Of a DNA stretch of 64,000 nt, positions 44,601 to 64,000 are shown piece after piece. Made by a program: the position numbers and the translations under genes. Under the pieces are notes generated by a model. The model had not been told where the DNA came from. It searched no databases and was given only the letters and a program-made list of their open reading frames with translations. Every line of letters begins with the position of its first letter. Position 1 is the stretch's first letter. The stretch is from Haloactinopolyspora alba (lineage in GTDB: Bacteria; Actinomycetota; Actinomycetes; Jiangellales; Jiangellaceae): assembly GCF_003014555.1 (NCBI RefSeq), contig NZ_PYGE01000001.1, forward strand, positions 434,001-498,000, read 5' to 3'.

Positions 44601-44700
44601 CGAGCCGACGAGCAAGGCCAAGTTCGTGACCGACGTCGGCCCTCGACCTCCGATGATGAGCCTCAGAGACGTCGAGGCCAGCGCTCCGATTCACGACTGA
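41629..44700 (+). CDS. drmA: DrmA-like DISARM helicase
   Basis: 1023 residues. The first 350 residues are a beta-rich DISARM-type N-terminal region. The helicase has Walker A in ATGGGKTETYLG (near 388-395), a Cys-rich insert (CPFCG, CSNQDC near 500-535), motif II DELH near 627, motif III ASSATLTG near 663, and C-terminal motifs LSHGVDVDRLNTMVMLG and FIQTTARVGR near 830-865. This matches the large SF2 helicase DrmA, which with DrmB forms the DISARM core that binds 5'-ended single-stranded DNA. It is coupled to the sigma gene upstream and lies 12 bases before the drmB-like gene. Confidence 0.78.
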   Translation: MTSPAPDQSAREACNAFVDWLDSRVIAAGRGDGLDRLEVAPASTFWLGRLATEDEVRQGGDDDRSERLDPCAIGIRLRPADTAPWSITATVQARAWVKDSKKDGPDPQGPWRRSDLVEEVVTVRVDTGGGSFGSTQLENAFAAVGAPGLSAEVRVDVEDWHKQTEIVVEFVNTSPRKLPALGDTHLFETQLEVSGVATASFQLEALPDSFRYDRDVHAYGINVGVDEPSPGTFRTTDTVSVQTYRPTYWHGTETQPDLSFATMAADPLPQLQALVDALASYDDAHWSPSVLDARAAEESWQPSMRAEADRSASEVFAELERLRSGLELLRTRDDVLRAFQLMNMAIERSSEGRGYDAWRPFQVGFLLSTIGFLVDPEREADYVDTVWFATGGGKTETYLGLLLTAAFFDRLTGKTMGVTAWSRFPLRLLSLQQTQRFADALAGAELVRKEEGVGGTQFSLGFLVGRAGTPNKIVPKTEKDDEVTPDSPGMPDKYRVLLHCPFCGSDSLQMSFHRERWKLEHRCSNQDCTTHGQALPMYVVDQEVFRFLPTVVVGTLDKAASIGLQQAMRGLVGPPQKVCPVSWHGFTYAERSAAPNGCLVPGCQGGNVLKPLPIDAKRFGPSLRLQDELHLLRDSLGAVDSHYESLLDHVQYELCGTRAKIVASSATLTGYERQIEVLYQRKGRVFPQPGPWAGESFWTAPIEEPLRKFVAVAPRGVTLEHVSDRTLDTLQRCVRELMEDPARVCSEAGVDPSHLGTLVSLYGTNVVYGTTLYDVEAAGRSLGNNNTVESIEVEQLTGQTDFDDVRAVLDRLDNPEAEFHERIHVIAASSMLSHGVDVDRLNTMVMLGLPLTTAEFIQTTARVGRKFPGLVYVLHKIGRERDAQTFRQFEQYVRQGDRFVDAIPITRRSRRVLDLTVAGVVNARTLMIREPASKQRLSTPAKLRDYARDSGLTATDEAEAVGDVLGFDDAQDTAHREQIAEWVQEWYAELHEPTSKAKFVTDVGPRPPMMSLRDVEASAPIHD

Positions 44701-46341: not shown

Positions 46342-46781
46342 CGACGAATGCGCAGTGACGACAGCCGACTCCGCCATTGCGCCTCGATCCGGTCGGCAGC
46401 GTCGATCACCCTCTCGTGCTCCCACACGTGCATCACGTACCAGCCCAGGTCCTCGAGGGCGGCGTCCTTGGCGCGATCACGCGAAACGTTGCGGTCGAGT
46501 TTCGCTTCCCACCAGTCACGGTTGTTGCGCGGCAGAGTGCCGTGCTCCGAGCAGCGATGCCAGAAGCAGCCGTCCACGAAAACGGCGATCTTCGCCTTGG
46601 TGAACGCGATGTCGGGACGGCCGGGCAGACCTCGATGGTGGACGCGGAACCGCAGACCACGACAGTGCAACTCGCTGCGCAGCGCCAGCTCCGGTTTCGT
46701 GTCGGTGCGGCGTTGCCGCTGCAACCGAGCCGACGTCGCTGGGCCGAGCGGAACCGGCGTGGACGTGGACTCTCGGCCCAT
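46332..46781 (-). CDS. vsr: Very short patch repair endonuclease Vsr
   Basis: 149 residues. The Vsr fold is complete: TDTKPELALRSELHCRGLR at the start, catalytic Asp57 in RPDIAF, D70 with CFWHRC (H75) and H80, and WEHE near the end. Vsr nicks beside T:G mismatches arising from deaminated 5-methylcytosine, so it fits the cytosine methyltransferase at 38793-39911. It is encoded opposite to the drm operon, between drmB and drmD; its 3' end overlaps that of the drmB gene. Confidence 0.92.
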   Translation of the reverse strand: MGRESTSTPVPLGPATSARLQRQRRTDTKPELALRSELHCRGLRFRVHHRGLPGRPDIAFTKAKIAVFVDGCFWHRCSEHGTLPRNNRDWWEAKLDRNVSRDRAKDAALEDLGWYVMHVWEHERVIDAADRIEAQWRSRLSSLRIRRQT

Positions 46782-46886
46782 GTGTCCAACCTATCCGAGA
46801 CGATGGGCCCAATCAGGGCCGTGGCACGGCATCGACCGTGCCGGGTGCATTCGACGAACAGCTGATTCGAAACGGAGGATGCGTCC

Positions 46887-49766
46887 GTGACGACGACAAC
46901 GCAAGACACCCGGACCGCCATAGCACCGGGGTCGGTGGTCGTGGTCCGCGACGAGGAGTGGCTGGTACGCGCGACCGAGCACACGACCGATGGCACGCTG
47001 GTGCACGTTCAGGGTCTCGGGGAGTTGGTCCGCGACACGTCAGCGTCCTTCTACGAGAAGCTGGACAACGTGGTGCCGCTCGAGCCGGCACACGCTCGTG
47101 TCGTGGCCGATGCCAGCCCGCAGTACCGCACCGCCCGCCTGTGGCTGGAGTCGACGATTCGCAAGTCGTCGGTTCCTCTGGGCGACGACTCACTGACGGT
47201 CGCGACGCGTGGACTTGCCGACGCGCTGAGTTATCAGCAGTCGGCAGTTCGCAAGGCGTTGGACCCTGAGAACCTTCGACCACGGATCCTGCTCGCCGAC
47301 GCCGTCGGCCTCGGCAAGACGCTCGAGATCGGGATGATCCTGTCCGAACTGGTCCGTCGCGGCCGTGGCGAGCGGATCCTCGTGGTGACGCCACGGCACG
47401 TGCTGGAACAGATGCAGCACGAGTTGTGGACCCGATTCGCGTTGCCGTTCGTGCGACTGGACACACCAGGCATTCAGCGCGTCCGCCAGAAGTTGCCCGC
47501 GACCCGCAATCCGTTCACCTACTACAAGCGAGCGATCGTTTCGATCGACACGCTCAAGTCCGACAAGTACGTCGCGAGCTTGCGTAAGCAGCGCTGGGAC
47601 GCGGTCGTCATCGACGAGTCGCACAACCTCTCCAACGCCGCCACGCTGAACAACCGCCTGGCACGGCTGTTGGCCCGCAACACCGAAGCGCTGATCTTGG
47701 CATCGGCCACCCCGCACAATGGTCGAGCCGAGTCCTTCGCCGAACTGCTCGCGCTCCTCGATCCGTCTGCGGTTCCGGCGGACGGCACGCTCCACCGTGA
47801 CGAAGTGCAGCGCTTGGTAGTGCGCCGCCACCGGCACAGTCCCGAGGTCGCACATGCCGTCGGCGCCGACTGGGCCGAACGCCAGCAACCGAACAACGTC
47901 CTGGTGCCCGCCACGCCGGCCGAGGACGCCGTCGCCCTCGAACTCGAACAGACATGGCTGTGGCCCGACAGCGGCACCAGCCCGTACTCGGGGCAGAACT
48001 CGTCGCTGTTTCCGTGGACGTTGGCCAAGGCGTTCCTGTCGTCGCCGGCGGCGCTGCAGGGCTCCATCGACGGACGCCTCGGTCGCCTCGGACACGACGA
48101 GCAGGCGGAGGCCGAGCGTAGGGCGCTCGAACGGCTTACTGCGCTGAACAGGGAAACGCTCGACGCGCGCTCCGCCAAGTACGACCGGCTCGTGGCGCAC
48201 CTCGAAGAGATCGGCGTCGCCCGAAACTCCGAAACCCGCGCGGTGGTCTTCGCCGAGCGGTTGGAGACACTGCGCTGGTTACACCAAGCGTTGCCCAACG
48301 ACCTCGGACTTCCGACGGAAGCTGTCGAGGTGATGCACGGCGGGCTGGCCGACGACGTCCAGCAGGGCATCGTGGAGTCGTTCAAGCAGGAGCACTCACC
48401 GATTCGTGTGCTCGTCAGTGGCGACGTGGCCTCCGAGGGCGTCAACTTGCACTCGCAGTGTCACGAGCTCGTGCACTACGACATCCCGTGGAGCCTCATC
48501 CGCATCGAGCAGCGCAACGGCCGTATCGACCGGTACGGACAGAAGCACCCTCCGCGGATCACCGCGCTTCTGCTGAATCCGTCGAACGATCGGTTCGCCG
48601 GCGACGTCCGGGTCCTCGCGAAACTGATCGACAAGGAGGACGAGGCACACACAGCGCTGGGCGACGTCGCTTCCCTGATGGGGCGATACGACGTCAAAGG
48701 TGAAGAAGACGAGATCCGTGCCGTCCTCGCAGGTGACAAGCAGCTCGACGATGCTGTCCGCCAAGTCGAGGAGGTAGCCGCCGGAGACGACCTCGCGGCG
48801 CTCTTCACGCAGCTCTTCGACGCGCCCGCACAGTCGGCCGCAGAAGCCGAACCGCCCACTGGTCACACCGAAGACGGCGGAACAGGGCTCTACGAGGACG
48901 ACGTCGAATACCTCGAGGACGCACTACGAGAAGCCTTCATCGACCCGACCGCGCCACCGGAACGTGGCGGAGTCGGGTGGCGCCGTGACGCGGCGTTCGG
49001 GACCGTAGAACTGACGCCTCCGCGCGATCTGGTGCAGCGCCTCGAAGTGTTGCCGCAGAGCTATCTGACCGACCGCAAGGTCACCGAAAAACTCCTGCTG
49101 GCGACGACGACCGCGCGCGGCTCCGACAGGTTGGCGGCTGCCCTGCGCGACGACAGCGACTCGACGTGGCCGGACGCGCACTATCTGAGTCCGCTGCACC
49201 CGGTTCTCGACTGGGCAGCCGATCGGGCATTGGCCACTCTCGGCCGCAACGAGGTCTTCGCGGTACGCGGAACGGTCGACGCCCCCACGATCCTGTTGTC
49301 GGGCACCCTGACCAATCGCCGCGGTCACGTCGTGGCCGCATCGTGGTTGACCGCCCATTTCCCTGCGACGGACGATGCGTCGTTCGCGTTGATCACCCCG
49401 CACGACTCGATGCCAGACGCGCTGCACACGTTTGGCTGGGACGCGGTCAGGTCCAACCCCGGACCGGTGGACGACGTCGCGACGTTGCAGCGGTTCGTGG
49501 CGCCGGCAGTACACGAGGCCGAGAAGCACCTGCGCACCGTGTTCGATGCGGCGGAGCGCGACACCGCGGATCGAGTGGAGCGGTGGTCGCGGCGACTCCA
49601 GCACTGGGATGCGGAGGCGGACGCGTTGATTCAACGTAGCGAGATCAAACGCCGACGAACGAGTGTGGAGCACGAGCGAGAACTGGTGGAGGCGATGGCA
49701 CCCGATCAGCAACTCGTACGGCCGCTGTTGGTCGTCGTGCCGGACACGGAGGGGAGCGCACGGTGA
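46887..49766 (+). CDS. drmD: DrmD-like SNF2 helicase (class 1 DISARM)
   Basis: 959 residues from GTG 46887, with GGAGG eight bases before. SNF2 helicase motifs: ADAVGLGKT near 138, TPRHVLEQM (Ia), DESHNLSN (II) near 240, ASATPHNG (III) near 274, and in the second lobe SGDVASEGVNLHSQCH and RIEQRNGRIDRYGQ near 509-550. A long C-terminal region (600-959) lacks known motifs. This is the layout of DrmD from class 1 DISARM. It overlaps the methylase gene by four bases. Confidence 0.82.
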   Translation: MTTTTQDTRTAIAPGSVVVVRDEEWLVRATEHTTDGTLVHVQGLGELVRDTSASFYEKLDNVVPLEPAHARVVADASPQYRTARLWLESTIRKSSVPLGDDSLTVATRGLADALSYQQSAVRKALDPENLRPRILLADAVGLGKTLEIGMILSELVRRGRGERILVVTPRHVLEQMQHELWTRFALPFVRLDTPGIQRVRQKLPATRNPFTYYKRAIVSIDTLKSDKYVASLRKQRWDAVVIDESHNLSNAATLNNRLARLLARNTEALILASATPHNGRAESFAELLALLDPSAVPADGTLHRDEVQRLVVRRHRHSPEVAHAVGADWAERQQPNNVLVPATPAEDAVALELEQTWLWPDSGTSPYSGQNSSLFPWTLAKAFLSSPAALQGSIDGRLGRLGHDEQAEAERRALERLTALNRETLDARSAKYDRLVAHLEEIGVARNSETRAVVFAERLETLRWLHQALPNDLGLPTEAVEVMHGGLADDVQQGIVESFKQEHSPIRVLVSGDVASEGVNLHSQCHELVHYDIPWSLIRIEQRNGRIDRYGQKHPPRITALLLNPSNDRFAGDVRVLAKLIDKEDEAHTALGDVASLMGRYDVKGEEDEIRAVLAGDKQLDDAVRQVEEVAAGDDLAALFTQLFDAPAQSAAEAEPPTGHTEDGGTGLYEDDVEYLEDALREAFIDPTAPPERGGVGWRRDAAFGTVELTPPRDLVQRLEVLPQSYLTDRKVTEKLLLATTTARGSDRLAAALRDDSDSTWPDAHYLSPLHPVLDWAADRALATLGRNEVFAVRGTVDAPTILLSGTLTNRRGHVVAASWLTAHFPATDDASFALITPHDSMPDALHTFGWDAVRSNPGPVDDVATLQRFVAPAVHEAEKHLRTVFDAAERDTADRVERWSRRLQHWDAEADALIQRSEIKRRRTSVEHERELVEAMAPDQQLVRPLLVVVPDTEGSAR

Positions 49767-52700
49767 CTGGATCGGACGCCATCCTCGTCGGTGAGGGTTG
49801 GATCTCTGAACATTTCTTCACGACCGACGCCAAGGGTGATTCGTTCCGGGCGCGGGTGTCGGAGCGCCGCGCCACGTGGGACGCCGAGGCGAAGGAGGGC
49901 CGGGCGACGCCGCGCTCGCGTTTCACGGAGGTTCGTCAGGAGCTCGAGGCCGATCTGTCGGCGCTGACCGGACTCCTCGATCCGAACGCGGGGGCCAGCG
50001 TGCGCGATGGCAGGAGCGCCGACGACGTCGCCGAGACGGTCCGCACGCGCCTGTTCGACGTCCTGGAGCTGACCGGACACGGCCTCGTGCTCGAACACGA
50101 GAGACCACTGGCACGGGTGTCGGCCCCTGGGGTGACGGGCGCGGCTCCGCTCGTCGTGGTGTCGGCGCGGCCGGTCCAGGCGATCGAGGATCTGCTGCTG
50201 CGTGATGCGGTGACACTTCCTGAGCCCGTCCAACTCGCCGACGACGCCGACGAACTGACGTCCGCGGCTCGGCTCGTGTCCGCGCTCTTCGTCGCCGACG
50301 ACGCACCTGACCTCGTACTCGTGCTCGCCGGCAGGTGGGCCTTGCTCACCGAGCGGGAACGCTGGGCCGAGGGACGCTACCTCGCCGTCGACCTTCAGCT
50401 CGTGTGCGAACGCAACGACACCAAGAAGGGTGGCGAGATCGACCGGGCCCTGACGTGCCTGTCCGCGCAGTCGATCGCGCCCGATGCGGAAGGGAAGCTG
50501 TGGTGGCACGAAGTTCTCGAGGCCTCCGTCAAACACACGGTCGGCGTTTCCCAGGATCTGCGCGACGGTGTCCGCCTGTCGATCGAGATCATCGCCAACG
50601 AGGTCGTCGAACGTCGCCGCGAGAAAGAGCTGGAGCCGCTACGAGCGAGCGAAGCCCAGCCGCTGGCGAAAGAGTCGCTGCGGTACCTGTATCGCATCCT
50701 GTTCCTCCTGTACGCCGAGGCCTCGCCGGAGTTGGGAGTCCTACCGGTCGGTGCTCGCGAGTACGACCAGGGCTACAGCCTCGACCGGCTGCGCGAGCTG
50801 GTGCAAGTGGAGCTGGCGACGCCGCGTGCCCGCAGCGGCACACATCTCTACGACTCCCTCGGTGTGCTGTTCCGCCTGGTCGACTCGGGGCACTCTCCTG
50901 CGCTCGATGGCGAGGACGATGACGACGAAGGGTTGGCGTATACCGAAGGTTTGACGTTCAACGCGCTGAAGGCCGACCTGTTCCGCCCGGAGGCGACCGC
51001 CCACATCGACGAGGTCGGCCTCGGCAACGCTGCCGTGCAGCGGGTACTCACCCACTTGCTGTTGAGCAAGGAGTCGCGGGGCAAGGACAGGGGCTTCATT
51101 TCCTACGCCGAACTGGGCATCAACCAACTCGGCGCCGTGTACGAGGGCCTGATGTCCTACACCGGGTTTTTCGCCGAAACCGACCTGTACGAGGTCGCAA
51201 AGAACGGCGACGGCAGCAAGGGTTCGTGGGTGGTTCCGGTCGACCGGGCCGACACGATCGAACCAGCGGACTTCGTCAAGACCGAAGACCCCGTGACCAG
51301 TGAAGAGCGGCCGGTGCTGCATGAAGCCGGTTCGTTCGTGTTCCGCCTGGCGGGACGCGAGCGGCAGCAGTCCGCGTCGTACTACACACCCGAGGTTCTG
51401 ACCCGCTTCACCGTCGGTCAGGCGTTGGACGAATTGCTCGACCAGGATGGTCGCACGACCCCGGCTACCGAAATTCTCGACATGACCGTCTGTGAGCCGG
51501 CACTGGGCTCGGGCGCGTTCGCGATCGAGGCTGTGCGACAGCTCGCCGAGCAATACCTGAAACGACGCCAGGACGAGCTCGGTGTACGCATCGACCCAGA
51601 CGAATACCCCCGCCGGCTCCAAGAGGTCAAGGCGTATCTCGCGCTGCACAACGTGTACGGCGTGGACCTCAACGCCACGGCCGTCGAGCTCGCCGAGATC
51701 TCACTGTGGCTCGACACCATGGTCGAGGGAATGGCGGCACCGTGGTTCGGGCTGCACCTCCGCCGCGGCAACTCCCTCGTCGGCGCACGTCGCGCCGTGT
51801 ACCAGCGCAGCCAACTCAACGACAAGTCGTGGCTGCGAGCCGTTCCGCGTGACGTACCGCTGACGTCGCTGGCGGACGACATCGACGACGGTCGAGTCGC
51901 GTCCGACGGCATCCACCACTTCTTGCTCCCTGCGGAAGGGTGGGGCGCTGGTGCAGATGCCAAGGACGCCGCCACATTGGTTCCCGATCGAGCCAAGCAG
52001 CTGAAGGCGTGGCGCAAGGCTGTGCGGGCCAAGCCGACCAAGCAGCAGGCCGACGCGCTGGTCGAACTGGCGCACCGGGTAGAGGTGCTGTGGCAGATCG
52101 CGTACCGCCGATTGCGGATTGCCGAGCAGGAAATCCGCCGGTCCATTCCGGTGTGGGAAGCCGGCGACCTCCCTGTCGGCGGCGCCGTGCAGCGCCCGCA
52201 GATCGAAGCCGCGCTCGCCGACGCCGACGGCGCATACCAGCGGCTACGTCGCGTGATGGACGCCTGGACGGCTCTGTGGTTCTGGCCGCTCACGGACCAC
52301 GCAACCACGGTCGGCGACGTGTCCGTGGAGCCGCCGAACCTGTCCCGGTGGATCGAAGGCCTGCAAGCACTCCTCGGTCGCAGCCCCGAGCTACGCAAGG
52401 CGTCCCGTTCGCAGGACACTCTGATCGCCGGAGCGAGCTGGGACGAACTGAATGACACCGAGAAGTTCGAACTTTCCTTCGCCAATGCCCGACCAGTGGC
52501 CGACGTGCTCGAGGATCACCCGTGGCTCGTCGTGTGCGAGCGGGTGGCAAAACAGCAAGGTTTCTTCCATTGGAACCTCGACTTCGCGACCGTCTTCGGC
52601 CGAGGCGGGTTCGACCTACAGGTCGGTAATCCGCCGTGGGTACGCCCACGCTCCGACGTGGACGCGTTGCTGGCCGAGGGTGATCCTTGGTGGCAGCTCG

Positions 52701-54481
52701 CGGTCAAGCCGACTGAGCACCAGAAAGCGACGCGGCGAGAAGTGACGCTCGCGCTGCCCGGCGTCCACGATCTCGTGGTGGACGGAACCGCCGAGGTCAC
52801 GAGCATGGCCGAGTTCGCCGGTTCCGCAGGCCAGTACCCACACCTCCAAGGCCTCCAGCCGGACTTGTATCGCTGCTTCATGGAGCAGACCTGGCGGCAC
52901 ACGTCACAGCGCGGCATGGTCGGCCTCATTCACCTGGAATCACATTTCACTGACGAGAAGGCGAGACGCCTCCGCTCTGCGGCGTACCTCCGACTCAGAC
53001 GTCATTGGGAGTTCATCAACGAACTTCAACTTTTTGAGATTCAGCACCAAAAGCACTACGGCGTAAACATCTACGGAGGCCACCAAGCTTCCCCATACTT
53101 TGCAAATGCCGTATCCATGTACCACCCTGATACCGTTGTCAGATCACTCTCTCATGATGGTTCGGGGGATGAACCAGGTTTCAAAGACGCAGACGCCAGC
53201 TGGGATCTGCGCCCGCACCACAATCGCATCACGACGGTCACCGACGAGACCTTAGCGACGTGGCACGCGATCCTCGAGTCCGAAGACACGCCGATCCGCG
53301 AAACTCGGATGGTCTACGCTGTCAACCGATCCACCGCTACAGCGCTGGAGAAGCTGTCGCATTCCCCACGCATCGGTGAGCTCGACCTTCAGTTCTCACG
53401 CGGCTGGGACGAGAGCATCGATCGAAAGAAGGGGTATTTCGAGTCTGAATGGGGCGCACCCGACTCGTGGCGCGACGTGATCCTCCAAGGGCCGCATCTG
53501 TTCGTGGCCACTCCGATGTACAAGTCGCCGAACAAGACGATGCTGCATAATACAGACTGGTCGGCGACGGACTTCGAGGCGCTGCCGCCCGATGCGGTAC
53601 CCGTCACCGCTTACAAGCCCGCCGGCGACAGATCTGCGTACGATCGCAACTACACCCACTGGGGTGAGGACGATGCGCGCCGCTCCGCCCGCGACTTCTA
53701 CCGCATCGCCTGGCGCAACATGGCAGCAAATACGGGGGAGCGAACGCTGATGCCCGCCCTGGTCCCGCCAGGACCGGCACATATTCATGGCGTCTCAGCG
53801 GTCGGCTCCTTGGATATTCCACTCCAGTCACTTGTATGCGTAGCGGGACACGTCTCGTCGTTGTCGGCCGACTTCTTCGTTCGAACGGCACCCAAGTCGA
53901 CTATCTCAGCCGCTACGGTTGGTCACCTTCCCTACGTTGAGAGCGCGCTAGTGTCAGAACTCGTCCTACGTGTACTCCGGCTGAACTGCGTCACTTCTGC
54001 GTACGCGGACCTGTGGACTGCCTGCTACGCGCCGGAGTTCCAGGATGACACTTGGGCAGGAGGGTTCCAGCACAATCGGCACCGTCCACTGGGCGATGTC
54101 GCGCCCGAGTGGAGCACGGACGCTCCGCTGCGAATCGCTGCCGACCGTCGGCAGGCCTTGGTCGAGATCGACGCGCTCGTCGCACTCACGCTGGGGTTGA
54201 CGGCCGACGAGCTGTGCACGATCTACCGCACACAGTTCGCTGTCCTCTACGGTTACGACCGCAACACGTACTACTACGACACCAACGGGCGGTTGGTACC
54301 CAACACTGTATTGAGTGTGTGGCGGAAGAAGGGTGACAGGATCACCGAGGAGGAACGCACCGCGACGAACCCGGCCGGCATCGCCTACACCTACGAGCTG
54401 CCGTTCCAGACGTTGGATCGGGAGGCGGACATGCGGCAGGCGTACGCCCACTTCGAGCGTCTGGCGGAGGAACGCTCATGA
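49763..54481 (+). CDS. drmMI: Eco57I-type adenine methyltransferase, DrmMI-like
   Basis: 1572 residues from GTG 49763. A 540-residue N-terminal region precedes the methylase core: SASYYTPEVLTRFTVGQAL near 533, SAM motif CEPALGSGAFAIEAV near 574, DLNATAVELAEISLWLDTM (acidic motif) and, after a long insert, catalytic GNPPWVRP near 955. The rest contains target-recognition-like segments. NPPW marks N6-adenine methylation. In class 1 DISARM this protein (DrmMI) marks host DNA. A short lower-GC patch lies around 53.0-53.2 kb. It overlaps both neighbours by four bases. Confidence 0.82.
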   Translation: MTGSDAILVGEGWISEHFFTTDAKGDSFRARVSERRATWDAEAKEGRATPRSRFTEVRQELEADLSALTGLLDPNAGASVRDGRSADDVAETVRTRLFDVLELTGHGLVLEHERPLARVSAPGVTGAAPLVVVSARPVQAIEDLLLRDAVTLPEPVQLADDADELTSAARLVSALFVADDAPDLVLVLAGRWALLTERERWAEGRYLAVDLQLVCERNDTKKGGEIDRALTCLSAQSIAPDAEGKLWWHEVLEASVKHTVGVSQDLRDGVRLSIEIIANEVVERRREKELEPLRASEAQPLAKESLRYLYRILFLLYAEASPELGVLPVGAREYDQGYSLDRLRELVQVELATPRARSGTHLYDSLGVLFRLVDSGHSPALDGEDDDDEGLAYTEGLTFNALKADLFRPEATAHIDEVGLGNAAVQRVLTHLLLSKESRGKDRGFISYAELGINQLGAVYEGLMSYTGFFAETDLYEVAKNGDGSKGSWVVPVDRADTIEPADFVKTEDPVTSEERPVLHEAGSFVFRLAGRERQQSASYYTPEVLTRFTVGQALDELLDQDGRTTPATEILDMTVCEPALGSGAFAIEAVRQLAEQYLKRRQDELGVRIDPDEYPRRLQEVKAYLALHNVYGVDLNATAVELAEISLWLDTMVEGMAAPWFGLHLRRGNSLVGARRAVYQRSQLNDKSWLRAVPRDVPLTSLADDIDDGRVASDGIHHFLLPAEGWGAGADAKDAATLVPDRAKQLKAWRKAVRAKPTKQQADALVELAHRVEVLWQIAYRRLRIAEQEIRRSIPVWEAGDLPVGGAVQRPQIEAALADADGAYQRLRRVMDAWTALWFWPLTDHATTVGDVSVEPPNLSRWIEGLQALLGRSPELRKASRSQDTLIAGASWDELNDTEKFELSFANARPVADVLEDHPWLVVCERVAKQQGFFHWNLDFATVFGRGGFDLQVGNPPWVRPRSDVDALLAEGDPWWQLAVKPTEHQKATRREVTLALPGVHDLVVDGTAEVTSMAEFAGSAGQYPHLQGLQPDLYRCFMEQTWRHTSQRGMVGLIHLESHFTDEKARRLRSAAYLRLRRHWEFINELQLFEIQHQKHYGVNIYGGHQASPYFANAVSMYHPDTVVRSLSHDGSGDEPGFKDADASWDLRPHHNRITTVTDETLATWHAILESEDTPIRETRMVYAVNRSTATALEKLSHSPRIGELDLQFSRGWDESIDRKKGYFESEWGAPDSWRDVILQGPHLFVATPMYKSPNKTMLHNTDWSATDFEALPPDAVPVTAYKPAGDRSAYDRNYTHWGEDDARRSARDFYRIAWRNMAANTGERTLMPALVPPGPAHIHGVSAVGSLDIPLQSLVCVAGHVSSLSADFFVRTAPKSTISAATVGHLPYVESALVSELVLRVLRLNCVTSAYADLWTACYAPEFQDDTWAGGFQHNRHRPLGDVAPEWSTDAPLRIAADRRQALVEIDALVALTLGLTADELCTIYRTQFAVLYGYDRNTYYYDTNGRLVPNTVLSVWRKKGDRITEEERTATNPAGIAYTYELPFQTLDREADMRQAYAHFERLAEERS

Positions 54482-57400
54482 GTGAACTTCTCCCCACTCT
54501 GCAGGCGAGCGGCATCCGGCACAGCCTCGTCGACTACCTGACGACGACGTTCGGCCTCACCGACGGTGACGCTCGCGACGGGCTCGACCGGTTCCTGTCC
54601 GACCCGGAGTCAGGCATGTTCAAGGGGCCCTACGTACGCCTCCGCCTGCCGTTTCGCCCGGCTAACGAAGGCTGGCGCGATGCACTGGAGTGGTACGAGG
54701 GGTTCCCTCCCTACGGCCACCAGGCGACCGCGTTCACCCGACTCGCCTCCGCGGCCGGCGGCAGCTCGCGTCGGCCGTCGCCCACGTTGATCACCACCGG
54801 GACCGGGTCAGGAAAGACCGAAGCTTTCCTGTATCCGATCCTCGACCACGTCCTGCGTGCGCGTCGGAACGGCGAGACGGGCACCAAAGCTCTGATCCTC
54901 TACCCGATGAACGCGCTCGCCAACGACCAGGCTGCGCGGCTCGCGAAACTGATCACGTCGCACACCGAGCTGGCGAACGTCACGGCAGCACTGTTCACCG
55001 GCCAGACCGGGCAGGCGAACAGAACCGTGACGCCAGACGGGTTGATCACCGATCGCGGGATCGTTCGCGACACGGCTCCAGACATCCTGCTCACGAACTA
55101 CAAGATGCTCGACCAGCTGCTGCTTCGCCCCGAAGACCAGGAGCTGTGGCGACAGTCGGCCACGAGCTTGCGCTATCTCGTGCTCGACGAGTTCCACACC
55201 TACGACGGCGCCCAAGGTACGGACGTGGCCATGCTGCTGCGTCGCCTCGGTCTGACCCTGAAGAGTCATTGGCACGACGACGACCCTCATGTCGACGACG
55301 CGGCTCGGGAACGTCCGCTCGGTCTGATGACACCAGTCGCGACGTCGGCGACGCTCGGCGACAAGGGCGACCCGACCGTCATGCTCGATTTCGCGCAGAC
55401 GGTCTTCGGTGAACGCTTCGAGTCCGACGCGGTGGTCACCGAGACTCGCCTCGATCTGGACGAATGGATCGGTGACGCTGACGCTGCGGTCGCCGGCGCC
55501 GAGTTCGAGCCGGTGGACCTCGGCTCTCTCGACTTGGGCGCGGTCGTCGAGGCAGTGGACACGCTCGGCCACGATCCGACCGGAGAGCGCGTCGCCCACG
55601 CCGTCTTGAGTTGGATGTACGGCGTCGACACCTCCCGTTTCGCTGACGCCGAGCCGGAACTGTTGGCGGCCCTGTGTCGCGGACACCCGTTGGTCCGACG
55701 CCTCGCGGAGCACGCACAGAACGCACTCGCCCTCGAAACGCTCGCGGGACGGGTCTTCGACCACGGCAACGGCAACGTAGCGCATGCGGAAACGGCACTG
55801 TCGTACGTGCTCGCGATGCTAGGCCACGTCAGAGCGGTGACCGGACGCGCGGCGTTGTCGGTGGACGTACATCTGTGGGTCCGGGAACCCACCCGTATCG
55901 ATCGAGCCGCGGACGCGACGGCACTCTTCCGATGGAGCGACGACGGCCCACCGATCTCCGGAGACGACGCCGAAGACGTACGCCCGTCGTTTCCCGCAGT
56001 CTTCTGCCGCCACTGCGGACGATCCGGGTGGGGCGTCGGGCTCGCTCCCGTCGGCAACACACTCACGGTGGACGACGAGCGCATTCGGCAGCAGCACGCC
56101 GCCCACGAAGGTCGCTTCCGACCGTTGCTGTACGCACCCGCCGAAGCCGCCGCACATCTCGAAGAAGGCGAGCGTGTCGACGGCCTCGTCTGGTTCTCCG
56201 TCCGCAACCGTGAACTACTCACCGCGGTCGCCGAAGACGACCCGGACCTGCGCGACGGCTGGATCCTCCCAGTGCTCACCAACGCAGGAGCGGAGGCCGA
56301 CGAACGTAGCCGCAAGGACACGTGCCCCTCGTGTCGGCAGGAAGACGGAATCCGTTTCCTCGGCAGCGCGGTCGCCACCCTCCTGTCGGTGTCGCTGTCG
56401 ACGATGTTCGGCTCACCGACACTCGACGCACACGAGAAGAAGGCGCTGGTGTTCACCGACTCGGTGCAGGACGCCGCGCACCGGGCGGGATTCGTCCAGG
56501 CCCGGTCCCACACCCTCACCCTGCGCGCAGCGTTCCGCGAAGCAGTGGCCGACGGCCCGCTGACGCTCGACGCACTCGTCGACGAAGCGATGAGACAGGC
56601 CGGCGACGACCCTTTCGCTCGCTACCGCATTCTCGCGCCGGACTGCGCGGATCGAGAGTCGTTCGTGGACTTCTGGCGATCGACGAGCTTGCGGTCGGTG
56701 CGTGCCTCGGTTCGGTCTCGGGTCCGCAGGAGACTCGCGCTCGACGCAGCGCTGGAGTTCGGCCTCAACTCCCGCGTCGGCCGCACTCTCGAACTCACCG
56801 GCGCGGTGGCGGCCGAAGTCGAAGCCGGCCTGCCCGTGCGCATGGTCGGCGTCGCACGCTCCGCACTGCAGAACACGTCGTGGCAGGACACACTCGGCTC
56901 GGACGGGCCCGACGACACCACGCTGGTGCAATGGGTGCGCGGCGTTCTGGACCGGCTGCGTGCCCAAGGCGCCATCGATCACCCGTGGTTCGAGCGGTAC
57001 CGGTCCGACGACGGCCGCGACTGGTCGATCTGGGGCGGCCGTCCGCGGGGCGCTGGCATGCCCGCATTTCCCAGAGATCGGCCCAGGCCCGGGTACCCGA
57101 AGGTCGGCGGTTCCGCACCGCCAACCACCTACAGAAGCCTCGACTCGGTGACCTCTGCCCAATCGTGGTACGCCCGCTGGACATCACGGGTACTGGACGT
57201 CTCGCCACCCGACGGTGCACGTCTCATACGCCTGCTTCTCGGCCGGCTGGCCCACGACGGCGTCTTGACGACCACCACCAGCCAGTCCGGCGCCACCGTC
57301 TACGCGATCCCCCCGTCGGCGATCGTCGTCGTTCCCACCGAGGAAGCCGACGTCGTAGCAGGCCGCCACCTGCTCACCTGCGACGTGTGTCGGGCCGCCA

Positions 57401-60400
57401 CTCCCGGCACCACGACCACGGTCCAGCAGCTCACCGGAGCACCGTGCCAGCACGTCCGTTGTCGAGGTCGTCTACAGCCCACGGCGCAGACCGACAACTT
57501 CTACCGTCGCCTGTACGCCTCACCGGACATGCGCCGGATCGTCGCGCGCGAACACACCAGTCTTCTCGACGACGAGACGCGCCTGGCACACGAAGACGGG
57601 TTCCGCGAAGCCGCCGACAGCCCGCAAGCCCCGAACGTGCTGGTCGCCACCCCCACGCTCGAGATGGGTATCGACATCGGCGACCTGTCGGCCGTGTTTC
57701 TGGCATCGCTGCCCCGTACGGTCGCGTCGTACGTACAGCGGGTCGGTCGGGCCGGACGTTTGACGGGCAGTGCGCTCAACCTCGCGTTCGTGAGCGGACG
57801 CGGCGACGATTTGCCGAAACTCGGTGATCCGTTGTCGGTCGTCGACGGTGAAGTGCGACCACCGGCCACCTACCTGGCTGCGGAAGAGATACTCCGCCGC
57901 CAGTACACCGCTTCCCTGGTGGACGGGTTCGCGCGTGCCTCTGCCCGCCGCCATCCGAGGACAGCGGCCGGGGCGCTGGGATCCAGCGAACCCGGGACGT
58001 TCCTGGGCGACCTCGTCGTCCACGCCGAACAGAACGCCGACGAGAACCTGGCTCGGTTTCTCGCCACGTTCGACGGTCTCCCCACCGAGATCGTCGACGA
58101 TCTCCACGACTGGCTCCGTCCCGTAACGGGCCCCAGGACCAGTGGATTCGCCCGCCACATCAGCACCGCCAGCCGTCGATGGCGCGAGACCGTCGAGACC
58201 TTGAAACGCCGGCAGGTGGAGATCGACAAGCTACTGCCCGAACTCGAAGCACGAGTCGAGTCTCCCGCCGCGACCGACGACGACAAGCAAGCGTTGCGAT
58301 CGGCGAACGCGACACGCAAGCTCACCAACGCACAACTGGGCCACCTCCGCGGCGAGTACTGGATCAGCGTTCTCGAGGAATACGGGATCCTGCCCAACTA
58401 CACCTTGTTCGACGACTCCGTCACCCTCGACGTCGGGCTGTCCTGGACCGACCCGGACACCGGCGTACACGAGTACGGCAGCGCACGATTCGCCCGCGCC
58501 TCCGCACAAGCGCTGCGCGAGCTCGCACCCGGCGCGACGTTCTACGCACGAGGTTGGGAAATCTCCGTCGACGCGGTCGACCTCGGCATGGACGGAACCT
58601 CGATCCGCACCTGGGCCTTCTGCCCGGCCTGTGGCTACGCCGCCGACGTCGCGGTGTCCGGTCAAGAGGTCCCCGTCACGTCCTGCCCACGCTGCGGGAG
58701 CCGCGGCATCGACGACACCGGACAGCGGCTCGACGTCGTCGAACTGACTCGGGTCTCCGCCGAGGTTCGACGCGACGAGGTCGCGATCTCCGATCGCAAT
58801 GACCAGCGAGGGCACGTTGCTTTTCAGATCGTCACGGCCGCCGACGTCGACCCGGACCACGTCGACCGTCGCTGGTTCGTCGAAGGCACCGGTCTTGGGT
58901 GCACGTACCTGCGCTCCGTCGACATACGCTGGATCAACCTCGGACCCCCTGGACACGGATCCACACGCACGCTTGCCGGCGGCGAACGTCAGGGCATGCT
59001 GTTCCGCGTCTGCAGCGGCTGCGGCAAAAAGGACAGCGACACGGGCCAGAACCGACCGCACGAACACCGGCCTTGGTGTCCGCACCGCACCTCGGCCACC
59101 GAAGTGACGAAGACCGTCGCGCTCTCCAGGACACTGCGCACCCAGGGTCTGCTGATCCGGCTGCCACGGTCCGTCAGCCTCGGCGACGACTTCGCCGTGC
59201 CGAGTCTCTCCGCCGCACTGTTACTCGGGCTGCGCGAACAGATGGGCGGTCACCCGGACCACATTCGCGTCGAACACGTCGTCGACCCGACGTCGTCCGA
59301 CGGCACCGACAACCACGAGGCCATCCTGTTGCACGACACCGTGCCTGGCGGGACCGGCTACCTCACCGAGACCGCAGCTCCCGACCGACTTCGCGACCTA
59401 CTCGTTCTGGCGTGGGAACAGGTTCGCACGTGCCCGTGTCGCCATGAAGAACGTCTCGCCTGCCACCGGTGCCTGTTGCCCTTCACGGCTCCGAGCGCGC
59501 TTCGACGAGTGTCGCGTGCCACCGCCGACCGTCACCTACGCACGCTCTTGGGGGTGTCCGCTGACGCCGAGACTGCAGAAGGGACGGCGTGGACGGTGAC
59601 CGAGGTACCGCCGCACGACGAGCCCGAATCACATCTGGAGCGTGCGTTCTATCGCCAATTCGCTGGACGGTTACGGCGGAACGGCGCTGCGGTGACCGAG
59701 ACACCCGGACCAACAGGCAACGCACTACGCTTCACACTCCCCGGGACACACCGCCAGTGGACGCTCACACCGCAGGCGAACGTGGGTGATTCGCGGCCCG
59801 ACTTCCTGCTCGAGACCAACGACATGAACGTGCCTGACGTGGCGATCTTCACGGACGGTCATGCATACCACGCGACACGATCCGTCAACCGACTCGCTGA
59901 CGACGCCAGCAAACGTGCGAACCTGCGCGACTCCGGTCTCGTCGTCCTGAGCGTCACCCTCGAGGATGTCGTCGCCGACGAGAACGGCGCCGACGGTGCA
60001 CCGCACTGGTACAACGCCAGCGTCGCCGGCAGCCTGATGAACGTGCCGCAATTCCACGCTCCACCCGAGGCGTATCGGAGTCTGGGCCGTGGCCCGATCG
60101 CCTGGCTCGTCGATTGGGTGACCGATCCGCAGCCTGGATCCGTGTGCCACGTGTCTCGCGCCGTGCCGATGTTCTTCTCGAACGGACAACCCGTCCAGGT
60201 CCCCGATGGCACTCCGTTGGCGAACGTGGCCCGCGCCGTCGTGGTCGACGAGCCGATGCCCACCGGAGAGCGCCGCGTTCATGTCGACCGAACCGGGGCG
60301 CTGAGCGTCGCTGTGGAGATGGACGCCAACAACGTCGTCCACGTCGCCGTCGTGCTCGACGATCGCGACGACGCCATCGACGATGTACACGGCGACGCAT

Positions 60401-60816
60401 GGCGCAAGTGGTTGCGGTTGTCGAACGCTCTGTCGCTCCGCGACTGGCCGACCGTCGTCACCACGACGAGCCTCGTGACTCCAGATGTCGCCGAAACTGA
60501 CGCCGCGGATCACGGCAGGCCCGTCGGCGCGTGGGCGGACGCCTACGACGCGGCCGCTCCAGGCATCGAACGAGAGCTCGTGTCCGCGCTCGCCGGTCAC
60601 GGTGGATTTCCGCCACCCGTGATCGGAGCCGAAGGCCCAGACGGGATCCCGCTGGATCTGTCTTGGCCCGATCTTCGGATCGCCGTGGCTTCGACACACT
60701 TGTCGGAGCAAGACCGGACGGATCTCACTGCTGCAGGCTGGCGGGTCGTCGATCCGTCGGCCGACGAGGTCGTGGCTGCCCTCGGTGCCACGAATCCGAC
60801 GGACGGAGGTCGTTGA
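54478..60816 (+). CDS. Giant DruE-like DEAD/DEAH helicase with DUF1998 and C-terminal nuclease-like domain
   Basis: 2112 residues. SF2 helicase: Walker A TTGTGSGKTEAF near 102-113, DEFHTYDGAQGTD near 232, TSATLGD near 290, and second-lobe motifs ATPTLEMGIDIG and YVQRVGRAGR near 1056-1095. Zinc-like pairs (CRHCG, CPSC, CPACG, CPRCG) occur throughout. A DUF1998-like part (PGGTGYLTE, CPCRHEE, CHRCLLPF) lies near 1623-1670. A PD-(D/E)XK-like domain follows at about 1730-1840 (DSRPDFLLETN, VAIFTDGHAYH). The last 270 residues are unassigned. Size and DUF1998 match DruE of Druantia; the nuclease domain could replace the missing DrmC. Confidence 0.78.
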   Translation: MSELLPTLQASGIRHSLVDYLTTTFGLTDGDARDGLDRFLSDPESGMFKGPYVRLRLPFRPANEGWRDALEWYEGFPPYGHQATAFTRLASAAGGSSRRPSPTLITTGTGSGKTEAFLYPILDHVLRARRNGETGTKALILYPMNALANDQAARLAKLITSHTELANVTAALFTGQTGQANRTVTPDGLITDRGIVRDTAPDILLTNYKMLDQLLLRPEDQELWRQSATSLRYLVLDEFHTYDGAQGTDVAMLLRRLGLTLKSHWHDDDPHVDDAARERPLGLMTPVATSATLGDKGDPTVMLDFAQTVFGERFESDAVVTETRLDLDEWIGDADAAVAGAEFEPVDLGSLDLGAVVEAVDTLGHDPTGERVAHAVLSWMYGVDTSRFADAEPELLAALCRGHPLVRRLAEHAQNALALETLAGRVFDHGNGNVAHAETALSYVLAMLGHVRAVTGRAALSVDVHLWVREPTRIDRAADATALFRWSDDGPPISGDDAEDVRPSFPAVFCRHCGRSGWGVGLAPVGNTLTVDDERIRQQHAAHEGRFRPLLYAPAEAAAHLEEGERVDGLVWFSVRNRELLTAVAEDDPDLRDGWILPVLTNAGAEADERSRKDTCPSCRQEDGIRFLGSAVATLLSVSLSTMFGSPTLDAHEKKALVFTDSVQDAAHRAGFVQARSHTLTLRAAFREAVADGPLTLDALVDEAMRQAGDDPFARYRILAPDCADRESFVDFWRSTSLRSVRASVRSRVRRRLALDAALEFGLNSRVGRTLELTGAVAAEVEAGLPVRMVGVARSALQNTSWQDTLGSDGPDDTTLVQWVRGVLDRLRAQGAIDHPWFERYRSDDGRDWSIWGGRPRGAGMPAFPRDRPRPGYPKVGGSAPPTTYRSLDSVTSAQSWYARWTSRVLDVSPPDGARLIRLLLGRLAHDGVLTTTTSQSGATVYAIPPSAIVVVPTEEADVVAGRHLLTCDVCRAATPGTTTTVQQLTGAPCQHVRCRGRLQPTAQTDNFYRRLYASPDMRRIVAREHTSLLDDETRLAHEDGFREAADSPQAPNVLVATPTLEMGIDIGDLSAVFLASLPRTVASYVQRVGRAGRLTGSALNLAFVSGRGDDLPKLGDPLSVVDGEVRPPATYLAAEEILRRQYTASLVDGFARASARRHPRTAAGALGSSEPGTFLGDLVVHAEQNADENLARFLATFDGLPTEIVDDLHDWLRPVTGPRTSGFARHISTASRRWRETVETLKRRQVEIDKLLPELEARVESPAATDDDKQALRSANATRKLTNAQLGHLRGEYWISVLEEYGILPNYTLFDDSVTLDVGLSWTDPDTGVHEYGSARFARASAQALRELAPGATFYARGWEISVDAVDLGMDGTSIRTWAFCPACGYAADVAVSGQEVPVTSCPRCGSRGIDDTGQRLDVVELTRVSAEVRRDEVAISDRNDQRGHVAFQIVTAADVDPDHVDRRWFVEGTGLGCTYLRSVDIRWINLGPPGHGSTRTLAGGERQGMLFRVCSGCGKKDSDTGQNRPHEHRPWCPHRTSATEVTKTVALSRTLRTQGLLIRLPRSVSLGDDFAVPSLSAALLLGLREQMGGHPDHIRVEHVVDPTSSDGTDNHEAILLHDTVPGGTGYLTETAAPDRLRDLLVLAWEQVRTCPCRHEERLACHRCLLPFTAPSALRRVSRATADRHLRTLLGVSADAETAEGTAWTVTEVPPHDEPESHLERAFYRQFAGRLRRNGAAVTETPGPTGNALRFTLPGTHRQWTLTPQANVGDSRPDFLLETNDMNVPDVAIFTDGHAYHATRSVNRLADDASKRANLRDSGLVVLSVTLEDVVADENGADGAPHWYNASVAGSLMNVPQFHAPPEAYRSLGRGPIAWLVDWVTDPQPGSVCHVSRAVPMFFSNGQPVQVPDGTPLANVARAVVVDEPMPTGERRVHVDRTGALSVAVEMDANNVVHVAVVLDDRDDAIDDVHGDAWRKWLRLSNALSLRDWPTVVTTTSLVTPDVAETDAADHGRPVGAWADAYDAAAPGIERELVSALAGHGGFPPPVIGAEGPDGIPLDLSWPDLRIAVASTHLSEQDRTDLTAAGWRVVDPSADEVVAALGATNPTDGGR

Positions 60817-62966
60817 TGCCGACCATCATCATGGGCAAGCTCGCCAATCGCCTGGACGGTTCGGTTCGAGGTAAAGCGATGGCGTTTCTGCAGAAGCTCG
60901 GCGCCGACGACACTGTCCCCGGCCTGCACGTCGAGCCCATCCACAACTCCGCCGACCCACGAGTACGCACCGGTCGCGTCGACGACTCCTGGCGGGCGGT
61001 GATGTTCCGCCTCGACAGCGACGACGAAACCCACTACGTGATCCACGGCATCTGGCCACACGACGAGGCGATCGCCGTCGCTCAGCGGGTCCGTCTCCGA
61101 GTCAATCCCGTCAACGGCCTGCCTCAAATCGACGAGATCGCTGTAGCGCCACCAGAGCCGGCGAGCGAGCAGTCGCGGCAGACGTCACCGACGGTGCCAC
61201 CGCTTCTGGAGCAACTCGGACACGACCGCGCCGGCTTGGTCGACGTCCTCGGTCTCCCCGACGAGGTCACCGATCGAGCCATGTCTGCTGCAGACGAGGA
61301 TGCGGTACTGGAGCTCGCTCAACACCACGAAGGCTGGATCGGAACGATCCTGCTCGACCTTGCGGCGGGCGACCGCGCACACGACATCGCCGAGCGCATG
61401 CAGCTCCAGGAGGCGCCAGAAGTTCTGCACGGCGACAGTCATTCGGATGCCGACGTTCTGGACTCCCTCAAACGTCCCGCCGCGGCCCTGCAGTACGCGT
61501 TCATCGGAGACCAGGACGAATTGCGTCGCGTCATCGAGGCCGGTGACTTCGGAGCATGGCGCGTCTTCCTGCACCCCGAGCAACGTCGATACGTCGAACG
61601 CAGCTATCGAGGGCCGTTCCGACTTTCCGGTGGAGCAGGTACCGGGAAGACCGTGGTGCTCATACATCGGGCTCGTGAACTCGCCCGCCGTGACCCGGCA
61701 GCGAGGATCGTCCTCACCACGTTCACGACGAACCTCGCCGAAGCACTCAGAGACGGTCTCGCGCGACTCGATCCGCAGGCGAACCAGGCCAAGAGCCTCA
61801 CCGACAGCGGGGTGTACGTCTCGGGCATCGATGCACTCGCCGCGGCGATCCTCCGCGGGGCAGGAACAGGGCTCAAGACCGCGACACGTGAAGTGCTCGG
61901 CGAAGAACGGTCGGCTCCCCTCGTCCGCACGCCGGGTTCACGATGGCGCGAAATCGTCGAATCGACGGGCACGACGCTCCCACACACGATCGCGAACGAA
62001 ACTTTCTTGTCGTCGGAGTACGTGCACGTCGTCTTGGCGAACAAGATTCACGACGAGGCCGAGTACTTGCGGGTACGCCGTTCCGGTCGAGGCGTGGCAC
62101 TCGATCGCGGTAAGCGGTCGGCCGTCTGGGCTCTGATCGCTGCATACCGCGCGCAGAGCAGAATCGACGGCAGTCTCGACTTCGCCGAGGCCGCGGCCGT
62201 CGCCGCCGCGTACCTCTCCGGCCAAGACGAGCGCCCAGCCGATCACGTACTCGTCGACGAAGGCCAGGACCTCGCGCCGACGCACTGGCAGCTTCTGCGC
62301 GCTCTGGCGCCGGAGGGCACGGACGACCTGTTCATCGCCGAGGACTCCCACCAGCGCATCTACGGCTCACGCACCGTTCTCGGTCGTCACGGGATCGCCA
62401 TCGTCGGTCGTTCGCAACGCCTCACACTCAACTACCGAACGACTGCGCAGAACCTGCACTACGCAATGACCATTCTCGACGGAGCCGAATACGTGGACTT
62501 GGAGGACGAGCTCGACTCCACGGGGTACCGCTCCGCTCGACTCGGTCCCGCACCCACGATCGACGTCGTCGACTCGCTGGCGAACGAGATCGACGCGGTC
62601 GTCAGACACGTGAGCGAGTGGCTCGACGACGGTGACGACCACGAGACCGTCGCGGTGCTGGCGAGGGACCGATACCACCGCGACCGTCTCGTGACGGCGC
62701 TCACGGAGCACGGCACCGACGCTCGGGCCGTCGACCGTGAACGTTCCCCGAGAGGACGAGTCCCAGTGATGACGATGCATCGCGCCAAAGGCACGGAATT
62801 CTCCAAGGTGGTCCTCGTACCCGGCAGGCCGTCGTCGGGGGAACTGGCCCGGCTCGAATCCTTGGATCCGTCGGAACGAGCGGACGCAGATCTGCGTGCT
62901 CGGTCGTTGCGATACGTCGCAGCCACCCGAGCAAGAGACGAGTTGGTGGTCGTGCACAGGAACTGA
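60816..62966 (+). CDS. UvrD/Rep-like helicase with RelE-like N-terminal domain
   Basis: 716 residues from ATG 60816, overlapping the upstream stop (TGATG) with GGAGG six bases before. Residues 1-100 resemble a RelE/ParE-type fold (DPRVRTGRVDDSWRAVMF, YVIHGIWPHDEAIAVA). The helicase has Walker A GGAGTGKT near 272, motif II VDEGQD near 478, LNYRTTAQN (IV), TMHRAKGTEFSKVVLVPG (V) near 652, and VAATRARDELVVV (VI) at the end. The last gene with clear coupling to the DISARM/Druantia-like operon; it may act as a sensor-helicase. Confidence 0.82.
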   Translation: MPTIIMGKLANRLDGSVRGKAMAFLQKLGADDTVPGLHVEPIHNSADPRVRTGRVDDSWRAVMFRLDSDDETHYVIHGIWPHDEAIAVAQRVRLRVNPVNGLPQIDEIAVAPPEPASEQSRQTSPTVPPLLEQLGHDRAGLVDVLGLPDEVTDRAMSAADEDAVLELAQHHEGWIGTILLDLAAGDRAHDIAERMQLQEAPEVLHGDSHSDADVLDSLKRPAAALQYAFIGDQDELRRVIEAGDFGAWRVFLHPEQRRYVERSYRGPFRLSGGAGTGKTVVLIHRARELARRDPAARIVLTTFTTNLAEALRDGLARLDPQANQAKSLTDSGVYVSGIDALAAAILRGAGTGLKTATREVLGEERSAPLVRTPGSRWREIVESTGTTLPHTIANETFLSSEYVHVVLANKIHDEAEYLRVRRSGRGVALDRGKRSAVWALIAAYRAQSRIDGSLDFAEAAAVAAAYLSGQDERPADHVLVDEGQDLAPTHWQLLRALAPEGTDDLFIAEDSHQRIYGSRTVLGRHGIAIVGRSQRLTLNYRTTAQNLHYAMTILDGAEYVDLEDELDSTGYRSARLGPAPTIDVVDSLANEIDAVVRHVSEWLDDGDDHETVAVLARDRYHRDRLVTALTEHGTDARAVDRERSPRGRVPVMTMHRAKGTEFSKVVLVPGRPSSGELARLESLDPSERADADLRARSLRYVAATRARDELVVVHRN

Positions 62967-63031
62967 CGTGATGTCGCTCCGAGGCCACGACGTCCAGAGC
63001 GTGGCCCCGGAGCGGATGAAGGGCGATGACG

Positions 63032-63310
63032 ATGCCAGACGATTCTCGACTTGCCCCGCGCCGGGCGTTCGCGCGCCCGAACATGGCCGACGTACCCAAC
63101 GAACCGGGCGTCATGGTCGTCTTCGATCCCACGGGGAACCCCCTCTACGTCGGCTTCAGTCGGACGTTGCGCGACCGCCTGTTGGAGCACTTGAGCGGCG
63201 ACCGCAGCACGTCTGCGCTGCGCCGGCGGCTCGGCGACATGCTCGACGCGGAGAACCGCCGCACGGTGACCGGTGGCGAGGTCACCGATTGGCTGTCCAA
63301 GTGCGAGTTC
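63032..63310 (+). pseudogene. GIY-YIG nuclease domain, cut short by a frame change
   Basis: About 93 residues from ATG 63032 (AAGGG nine bases before; another ATG at 63026). The segment PGVMVVFDPTGNPLYVGFSR with TLRDRLLEHL is a GIY-YIG domain start (Val-Met-Val and LYVG for the two motifs). It reaches LSKCEF near 63308, where family members continue to a final Glu/Asn motif. From there the frame reads only Arg-rich shadow sequence, while an McrB-like protein starts in another frame. A deletion joining two genes, or a frameshift in one fusion gene, would explain it. Confidence 0.55.
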
Positions 63311-64000
63311 AGAGCACCTGGAACGCTGGTACAAGCTCGAAATCGCCGCGATGCTCGAGGGGGTCCGATCGGCGATGAACTCGGGCGGAGAGTGGCTGGC
63401 CGGGCTCAAGCAAGCGTTCCAGCCGCCGAACAACCTCACGAGCTTCTACTTCCACGGCAAGTTCCTCGACTGGGCAGCCCGCGACCCGGCCGCGGCACAG
63501 AGCGCACTCGAGGCGTTATGGGATATCGAGTTGGAGCCGGTCGAAGCAGTCCGAACGTTCGCCTCGCACCTGCCGGACGAACTCAGCGGTCCGGGATCGC
63601 GGGCCAATCTCGCGTCGTTCCTGCTGACGGCGATCGACGCCACACAGTTGCCGATCTACAAGTTCACCGTGTTCGAGAACGCCTACCGGAGCGTCGGTCT
63701 CGATCCCGCAGACCGCAAGACCCCGCATGGCGCCTACGCCGCCGCGCTCGATTTTCTCGATACGTACGGCGGCAAGCTCGCCGAGCGTAGCCGTCCGCAA
63801 CGCGACCGCCTCGACCTTCAGGGGCTGCTGTGGACCGTGTTCGCTGGCGAGGCACCGGAAACGTGGAGCGCGGACGAGAAGACGGGTTACGCGAATTTCG
63901 TGAAGGGACAGACCGTGAACGACCTCGGCGCGCTCGTCGCCAGATTCCGCGACGAGATCGGCTACCCGCCCGAAGGGCGCGTACAACGCCACCGTGAACG
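63303..64000 (+). CDS. McrB-like restriction protein, N-terminal part (runs off window)
   Basis: About 230 residues visible in the frame of ATG 63351, with good reading already from EHLERWYKLEIAAMLEGVRS near 63312. Blocks such as NNLTSFYFHGKFLDWAARDP, LASFLLTAIDATQLPIYKF and RDRLDLQGLLWTVFAG resemble the region before the GTPase domain in actinobacterial McrB-like proteins. The AAA/GTPase domain would lie beyond the window. No ribosome site precedes ATG 63351, consistent with a lost 5' end. If correct, it is a type IV enzyme for modified DNA. Confidence 0.5.

Follow-up and report, generated by a model that had tools for sequence, protein, structure and literature searches.

Which defence system does a 2112-residue helicase of Haloactinopolyspora alba belong to, and does its C-terminal region carry the nuclease that executes defence? 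The gene lies in a 64,000-nucleotide stretch of genomic DNA (hereafter the window). A sequence-only reading had proposed that a helicase, a DUF1998 domain and a nuclease-like domain are joined in this one protein, which is borne out by an intact frame, the Pfam domain matches and a Vsr-like domain at residues 1717-1845. We assign the protein, with a probability of about 0.86, to the ArmC helicase-nucleases of ARMADA Type II, encoded within an armA-D operon (46887-62966) and working as proposed below. The helicase-nuclease fusion is real, yet it has already been published for ARMADA ArmC (PMC12458937). As the fusion represents a published class, the interest of the locus lies in a list of candidate catalytic residues and in a recurrent DISARM-ARMADA gene block, which is the less expected feature.

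An ARMADA Type II operon

The armC gene forms a single unbroken frame on the forward strand (Table 1) and is coupled to both neighbouring genes via stop/start overlaps, with its ATG at 54478 overlapping the upstream stop codon (ATGA) and its TGA overlapping the downstream ATG (TGATG, 60814-60818). The window encodes the ARMADA II proteins in the strict order ArmA-ArmB-ArmC-ArmD. ArmA is a BrxHII/RapA-like SNF2 protein (DrmD, 3e-89; BrxHI/HII, 2e-53), ArmB is PglX-like, contains the NPPW motif and is 36% identical to its E. coli counterpart, and ArmC combines a YprA-like helicase with DUF1998. The N-terminal domain of ArmD is conserved and resembles that of E. coli ArmD by eye; this domain is described as RelE-like in the literature, and no Pfam or PDB match to RelE was obtained. 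Among 296 genomes sampled from the phylum, five others have a match, and four of them show the same gene order (the fifth match being a contig-end fragment); this order also recurs in most of 80 named-genome loci where the contig spans it, and on an E. coli conjugative plasmid.

The window ArmC is 30% identical to the ArmC of this plasmid over 1991 aa, and E. coli residues K110 and D234, whose mutation abolished defence (PMC12458937), align with K113 and D237 of the window protein. The ARMADA II assignment therefore goes beyond mere resemblance and is founded on orthology and gene order, and sequence comparison establishes both the identity of the operon and the orthology of its third gene to the ArmC type tested in E. 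coli. In ARMADA II, all four genes and the ArmC motor are required, and defence is direct and non-abortive (PMC12458937). The mutants presented in the text of that study affect motor and methylase motifs; none lies in the ArmC nuclease, and no nuclease assay is described. On the E. coli plasmid (pQnrS1_005237; locus L124, 1-17453), a further DEAD/DEAH helicase gene (~2100 aa) precedes the ARMADA II genes, which fits the published pairing of ARMADA II with Druantia III.

Conservation of the ArmC core was assessed in 82 ArmC proteins, a set that reaches down to about 36% full-length identity. Cys1652, Cys1654 and Cys1662 of the MZB domain are invariant (82/82) and Cys1665 is present in 81/82, and the cysteine pairs 510/513, 616/619, 968/971, 1382/1385, 1403/1406 and 1512/1515 are likewise invariant throughout the set. 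The ARMADA II ArmC helicase has been reported to bear a BrxA-like insertion, a beta-barrel zinc module and a MarR-like insertion (PMC12458937). A search of the window's own genome found no second armC copy. Two PDB entries of similar or somewhat smaller size, 9tu7 (2108 aa) and 9wae (1970 aa), were considered as ArmC structures and not accepted, because they match the helicase region only and profiles of the ArmC tail miss both.

Table 1. Features of the locus, with positions in the window; res, residues of ArmC
Feature	Position	Strand	Details
HTH + nucleotidyltransferase protein	34890-35420	+	block flank
NERD-domain helicase-like protein	35633-37279	-	block flank
C5-cytosine methyltransferase, DrmMII/DruM-like	38793-39911	-	
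sigma70-family protein	40091-41632	+	regions 2-4, divergent N-terminal 230 aa; 4-bp overlap with drmA
drmA, YprA-family helicase, DISARM type	41629-44700	+	
drmB, disrupted	44713-46341	+	Cys-rich end in another frame, ~46185-46358
stand-alone Vsr endonuclease	46335-46781	-	between drmB and armA; PF03852, 1.1e-21
armA, SNF2/RapA-type helicase, DrmD/BrxHII-like	46887-49766	+	conserved position in relatives
armB, PglX/DrmMI/type IIG-like adenine methyltransferase	49763-54481	+	NPPW at 956
armC, YprA/DruE-type SF2 helicase with MZB (DUF1998) and predicted C-terminal Vsr-like nuclease	54478-60816	+	2112 aa
ArmC DEAD/RecA1 domain	54784-55251	+	res 103-258; Walker A K113, DEFH D237; Pfam DEAD
ArmC Helicase_C/RecA2	57544-57762	+	res 1023-1095; QRVGRAGR at 1087; Pfam
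ArmC MZB/DUF1998 zinc-binding domain	59206-59475	+	res 1577-1666; Pfam
ArmC Vsr/EDxHD-type nuclease domain (predicted)	59626-60012	+	res 1717-1845; E1721, D1775, D1793, H1798, D1809
ArmC middle tail	60013-60507	+	res 1846-2010; well-folded alpha/beta model (AF2)
ArmC degenerate Vsr-like module (putative)	60541-60792	+	res 2022-2105; PD and H motifs lost; hhalign
armD, GajB-like UvrD helicase	60816-62966	+	conserved N-terminal domain
possible GIY-YIG protein	63026-63790	+	block flank

The recurrent sigma70 and DISARM genes upstream

Upstream of armA, the window contains part of a DISARM system. The entire block, consisting of a C5-methylase gene (reverse strand), a sigma70-like gene, drmA, drmB, a vsr gene (reverse strand) and armA-D without DrmC, occurs in six actinobacterial genomes, comprising the window, genome G204, Dactylosporangium sp. 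AC04546, Kutzneria buriramensis, Micromonospora lupini and Amycolatopsis iheyensis, the five besides the window belonging to at least two named families. These six genomes form one ArmC clade with a support of 100 (FastTree local support, in a tree of ArmC relatives only). The combination of DrmA, DrmB and DrmC that characterizes DISARM is incomplete: DrmC is absent, none of the six blocks having a PLD (DrmC-like) gene in its vicinity, and the window DrmB is frameshifted. Compared with all five relatives, the window drmB carries a 100-bp deletion at ~46163, after codon ~488, which shifts the frame and may be an assembly error. An open reading frame at 46348-46890 on the forward strand was rejected because it shadows vsr, which is encoded on the opposite strand.

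The methylase and the stand-alone Vsr mostly co-occur; in A. iheyensis, Vsr is missing and the methylase match comprises 58 aa only, and in M. lupini the methylase is located downstream. The two look like a repair-coupled methylation pair and not like a part of ARMADA. The sigma part of the sigma70-family protein matches the PADLOC model MzaA, and the protein is ~50% identical among block members, with a fast-evolving N-terminal region of 230 aa, in an alignment that leaves out the row of locus L102. The genes encoding NERD-domain, HTH-nucleotidyltransferase and GIY-YIG proteins on the flanks give the locus a defence-island setting.

The recurrence of this block raises the question of whether ArmC functions as part of a larger machine, in which DrmA, DrmB and ArmA-D would operate jointly with the sigma70-like protein as their dedicated sigma factor, and DrmC would be replaced by the Vsr domain of ArmC. 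This arrangement is identical in all six genomes of the clade, the flanking genes are absent or weakly matched in the other five, and no PLD gene that could act as DrmC lies nearby. However, most ARMADA II loci are devoid of DrmAB, and co-location together with a single shared ancestry is insufficient to demonstrate joint function, so that we put the composite machine forward only tentatively. As part of the same proposal, DrmA and DrmB would use the DrmD-like ArmA and the DrmMI-like ArmB, which draws on the use of DrmD and DrmMI, homologues of ArmA and ArmB, by class 1 DISARM (PMC12458937); such sharing of partners is also possible but doubtful. Since the window DrmB is frameshifted while ArmA-D are intact, ARMADA appears able to outlive DrmB. 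The recurrent block nevertheless suggests that a single unit can unite DISARM and ARMADA, whose helicases are already linked by descent, and that defence loci may possess a sigma factor of their own. No description of a sigma-DrmA-DrmB-ArmABCD block was found in the article texts searched.

The Vsr-like domain of ArmC and the tail behind it

The C-terminal region had been noted for a charge pattern resembling PD-(D/E)XK/Vsr-type nucleases, formed by ESHLERAFYRQF (residues 1717-1728), RPDFLL (1773-1778) and VAIFTDGHAYH (1788-1798). This likeness is upheld by three lines of evidence, namely residue conservation, profile comparison and the predicted fold. Residues E1721, D1775, D1793, G1794, H1798, D1809 and R1813 are invariant across the 82 ArmC proteins even though the mean column identity of the domain is just 34%, which argues that the motifs are not due to chance. 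E1721/D1775/D1793/H1798/D1809 corresponds to the active site of E. coli Vsr (E25/D51/H64/H69/D97) and is the same in kind as the set predicted for Caulobacter VsrA (E73/D102/D115/H119/D124; PMC12907096). The equivalent positions in E. coli ArmC, according to the alignment, are E1689, D1748, D1768, H1773 and D1780.

A profile of the ArmC domain matches true Vsr with 93% probability (hhalign, E 3.4e-7), the reference comprising eight stand-alone, PF03852-positive Vsr proteins from the window and its relatives. Furthermore, the Pfam family REase MTES_1575 matches 32 of 81 ArmC members (best 5.5e-6), the window protein itself falling short of the cut-off (E 0.003-0.004). PF03852 gave no match to the window ArmC and hit one of 81 members at 0.0068. 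Since PF03852 misses the domain and the DGCFWHxC cysteines are absent, we term it Vsr-like and predict no mismatch specificity. Of the ArmC profiles compared with the PDB, A4 retrieved I-Bth0305I at E 0.076, which is suggestive and not significant; A2 retrieved designed repeat proteins, and a phmmer search of the PDB with the C-terminal 453-613 aa yielded chance matches to nanobodies only. The ArmC tail is not encoded in any of the phage records searched.

AlphaFold2 (AF2) models built from 81 homologues contain an alpha-beta-beta-beta-alpha-beta core of the restriction-endonuclease type, whose absence would have spoken against a nuclease, with a pLDDT of 87 for the domain alone and 93 inside the 423-aa tail. 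D1775 opens one strand and D1793 lies just past the next, followed by H1798 and D1809. As the entire 423-aa tail yielded nothing usable in Foldseek, the domain was folded and searched separately, and none of its matches is significant (E >0.1 in the PDB, >0.004 among viral models). The recognisable top PDB matches are PD-(D/E)XK folds, including TnsA, I-Bth0305I, Hjc, VRR-NUC and BstEII, and those among viral models are DUF559, VRR-NUC and homing endonucleases. Together, conservation, profile comparison and modelling support the assignment of residues 1717-1845 to the PD-(D/E)XK superfamily, as a predicted nuclease of the Vsr/EDxHD type.

In ArmC of ARMADA I/II, a Vsr nuclease predicted to be active has been reported at the C-terminus, and inactivated domains of the EEP and Vsr types often come after it (PMC12458937). 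The ~270 residues behind the nuclease domain of the window ArmC, initially described as unassigned, are modelled by AF2 as a high-confidence fold. That description may need revision for residues 2022-2105, which show a weak match to Vsr (hhalign E 0.001, 21% probability) and are in line with the reported inactivated Vsr domain, and it stands for residues 1846-2010, where the published domain order would place the inactivated EEP and where profile and structure searches returned no significant match to confirm it. The tail seems to evolve more rapidly than the nuclease, given that tblastn matches to several Corynebacterium relatives stop just past the predicted active domain and that the E. coli tail differs from that of the window. 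At its far C-terminal end (L124, 9001-15339, residues 2021-2096), E. coli ArmC matches the PADLOC model ZorE2, an HNH endonuclease, at 5.9e-9, unlike the window tail.

A putative second, degenerate module also bears on whether the first one cuts. The Vsr-like domain could mainly bind DNA or sense its structure, with cutting performed by another partner, such as the nuclease part of ArmB or a host nuclease. Helicases of this family commonly bear degenerate Vsr domains, as in Druantia I/II and the second module of ArmC (PMC12458937), the Vsr-like protein FASTKD4 retains its cavity without cutting (PMC11879112), and Foldseek support for the nuclease domain is weak. However, none of the five active-site positions varies in the 82 proteins or in E. 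coli ArmC, whereas they are gone from the second module; this difference within one protein indicates selection for catalysis, and we consider a mainly DNA-binding or sensing role unlikely.

A proposed mechanism and comparison with known systems

We hypothesize that ArmC, an SF2 motor with a DUF1998 canopy, would load on DNA having a single-stranded 3' part and then translocate. The polarity would follow that of DruE of Druantia III, a sister helicase shown to load at single-stranded 3' tails and to cleave long DNA (PMC13192584). ArmC would either feed DNA to its Vsr/EDxHD-type domain or release this domain upon activation, the domain being potentially held by the degenerate second Vsr-like module and the intervening domain. 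It would then nick or cut DNA at a metal-dependent site in which E1721, D1775 and D1793 coordinate the ions, and which H1798 and D1809 complete. Methylation by ArmB probably marks self versus non-self, and ArmA (SNF2) and ArmD (UvrD) would act together with ArmC. We infer the catalytic step, the role of ArmB in discrimination and the order of events, and likewise that DNA cutting would make ArmC the executor of defence. The five residues that all 82 proteins and E. coli ArmC share make the executing role of the C-terminal domain, as considered in the ARMADA literature, directly testable by mutation.

The protein matches best the PADLOC models DruE3 and DruE1, which would make it a type III-like DruE and the locus a Druantia variant, but this is highly improbable, since PADLOC 2.0.0 (2023) predates the 2025 description of ARMADA and returned no ARMADA-named model among its matches, the gene is flanked by ArmA, ArmB and ArmD, the C-terminus of Druantia III DruE consists of two PLD domains in place of Vsr (PMC13192584), and the E. 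coli plasmid has a separate DEAD/DEAH helicase beside ArmA-D. Among the flanking proteins scanned, neither DruH nor DruA-D/DruM-F-G was found, except for a generic C5-methylase with a DruM match. DruE and the window ArmC share the YprA-family helicase core, the MZB module, a C-terminal nuclease and the helicase-nuclease logic, and they differ in the type of that nuclease and in the partner DruH.

The closest known system is ARMADA Type II (Bell et al. 2025, PMC12458937), with which the window shares the armA-B-C-D order, the protein families, the NPPW and Walker motifs, the size of ArmC, and its predicted C-terminal Vsr-like nuclease with putative inactive tail modules. The window differs in having the sigma70-like gene, drmA and a broken drmB in front and the C5-methylase/Vsr pair alongside, whereas in E. 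coli, ARMADA II is accompanied by Druantia III and Zorya II. With the Vsr endonuclease and the EDxHD homing endonuclease I-Bth0305I, the ArmC domain has in common the active-site set E, D, D/H, H, D and the fold class; unlike stand-alone Vsr, it is part of a giant helicase, and specificity for T:G mismatches is not expected. DISARM (DrmA, DrmB and DrmC with DrmD/DrmMI or DrmE/DrmMII) resembles the six blocks in its DrmA, DrmB and an adjacent DrmMII-like methylase and in the homology of DrmD/DrmMI to ArmA/ArmB; in contrast to DISARM, the blocks lack the PLD protein DrmC and contain an extra sigma factor and the helicase-nuclease ArmC.
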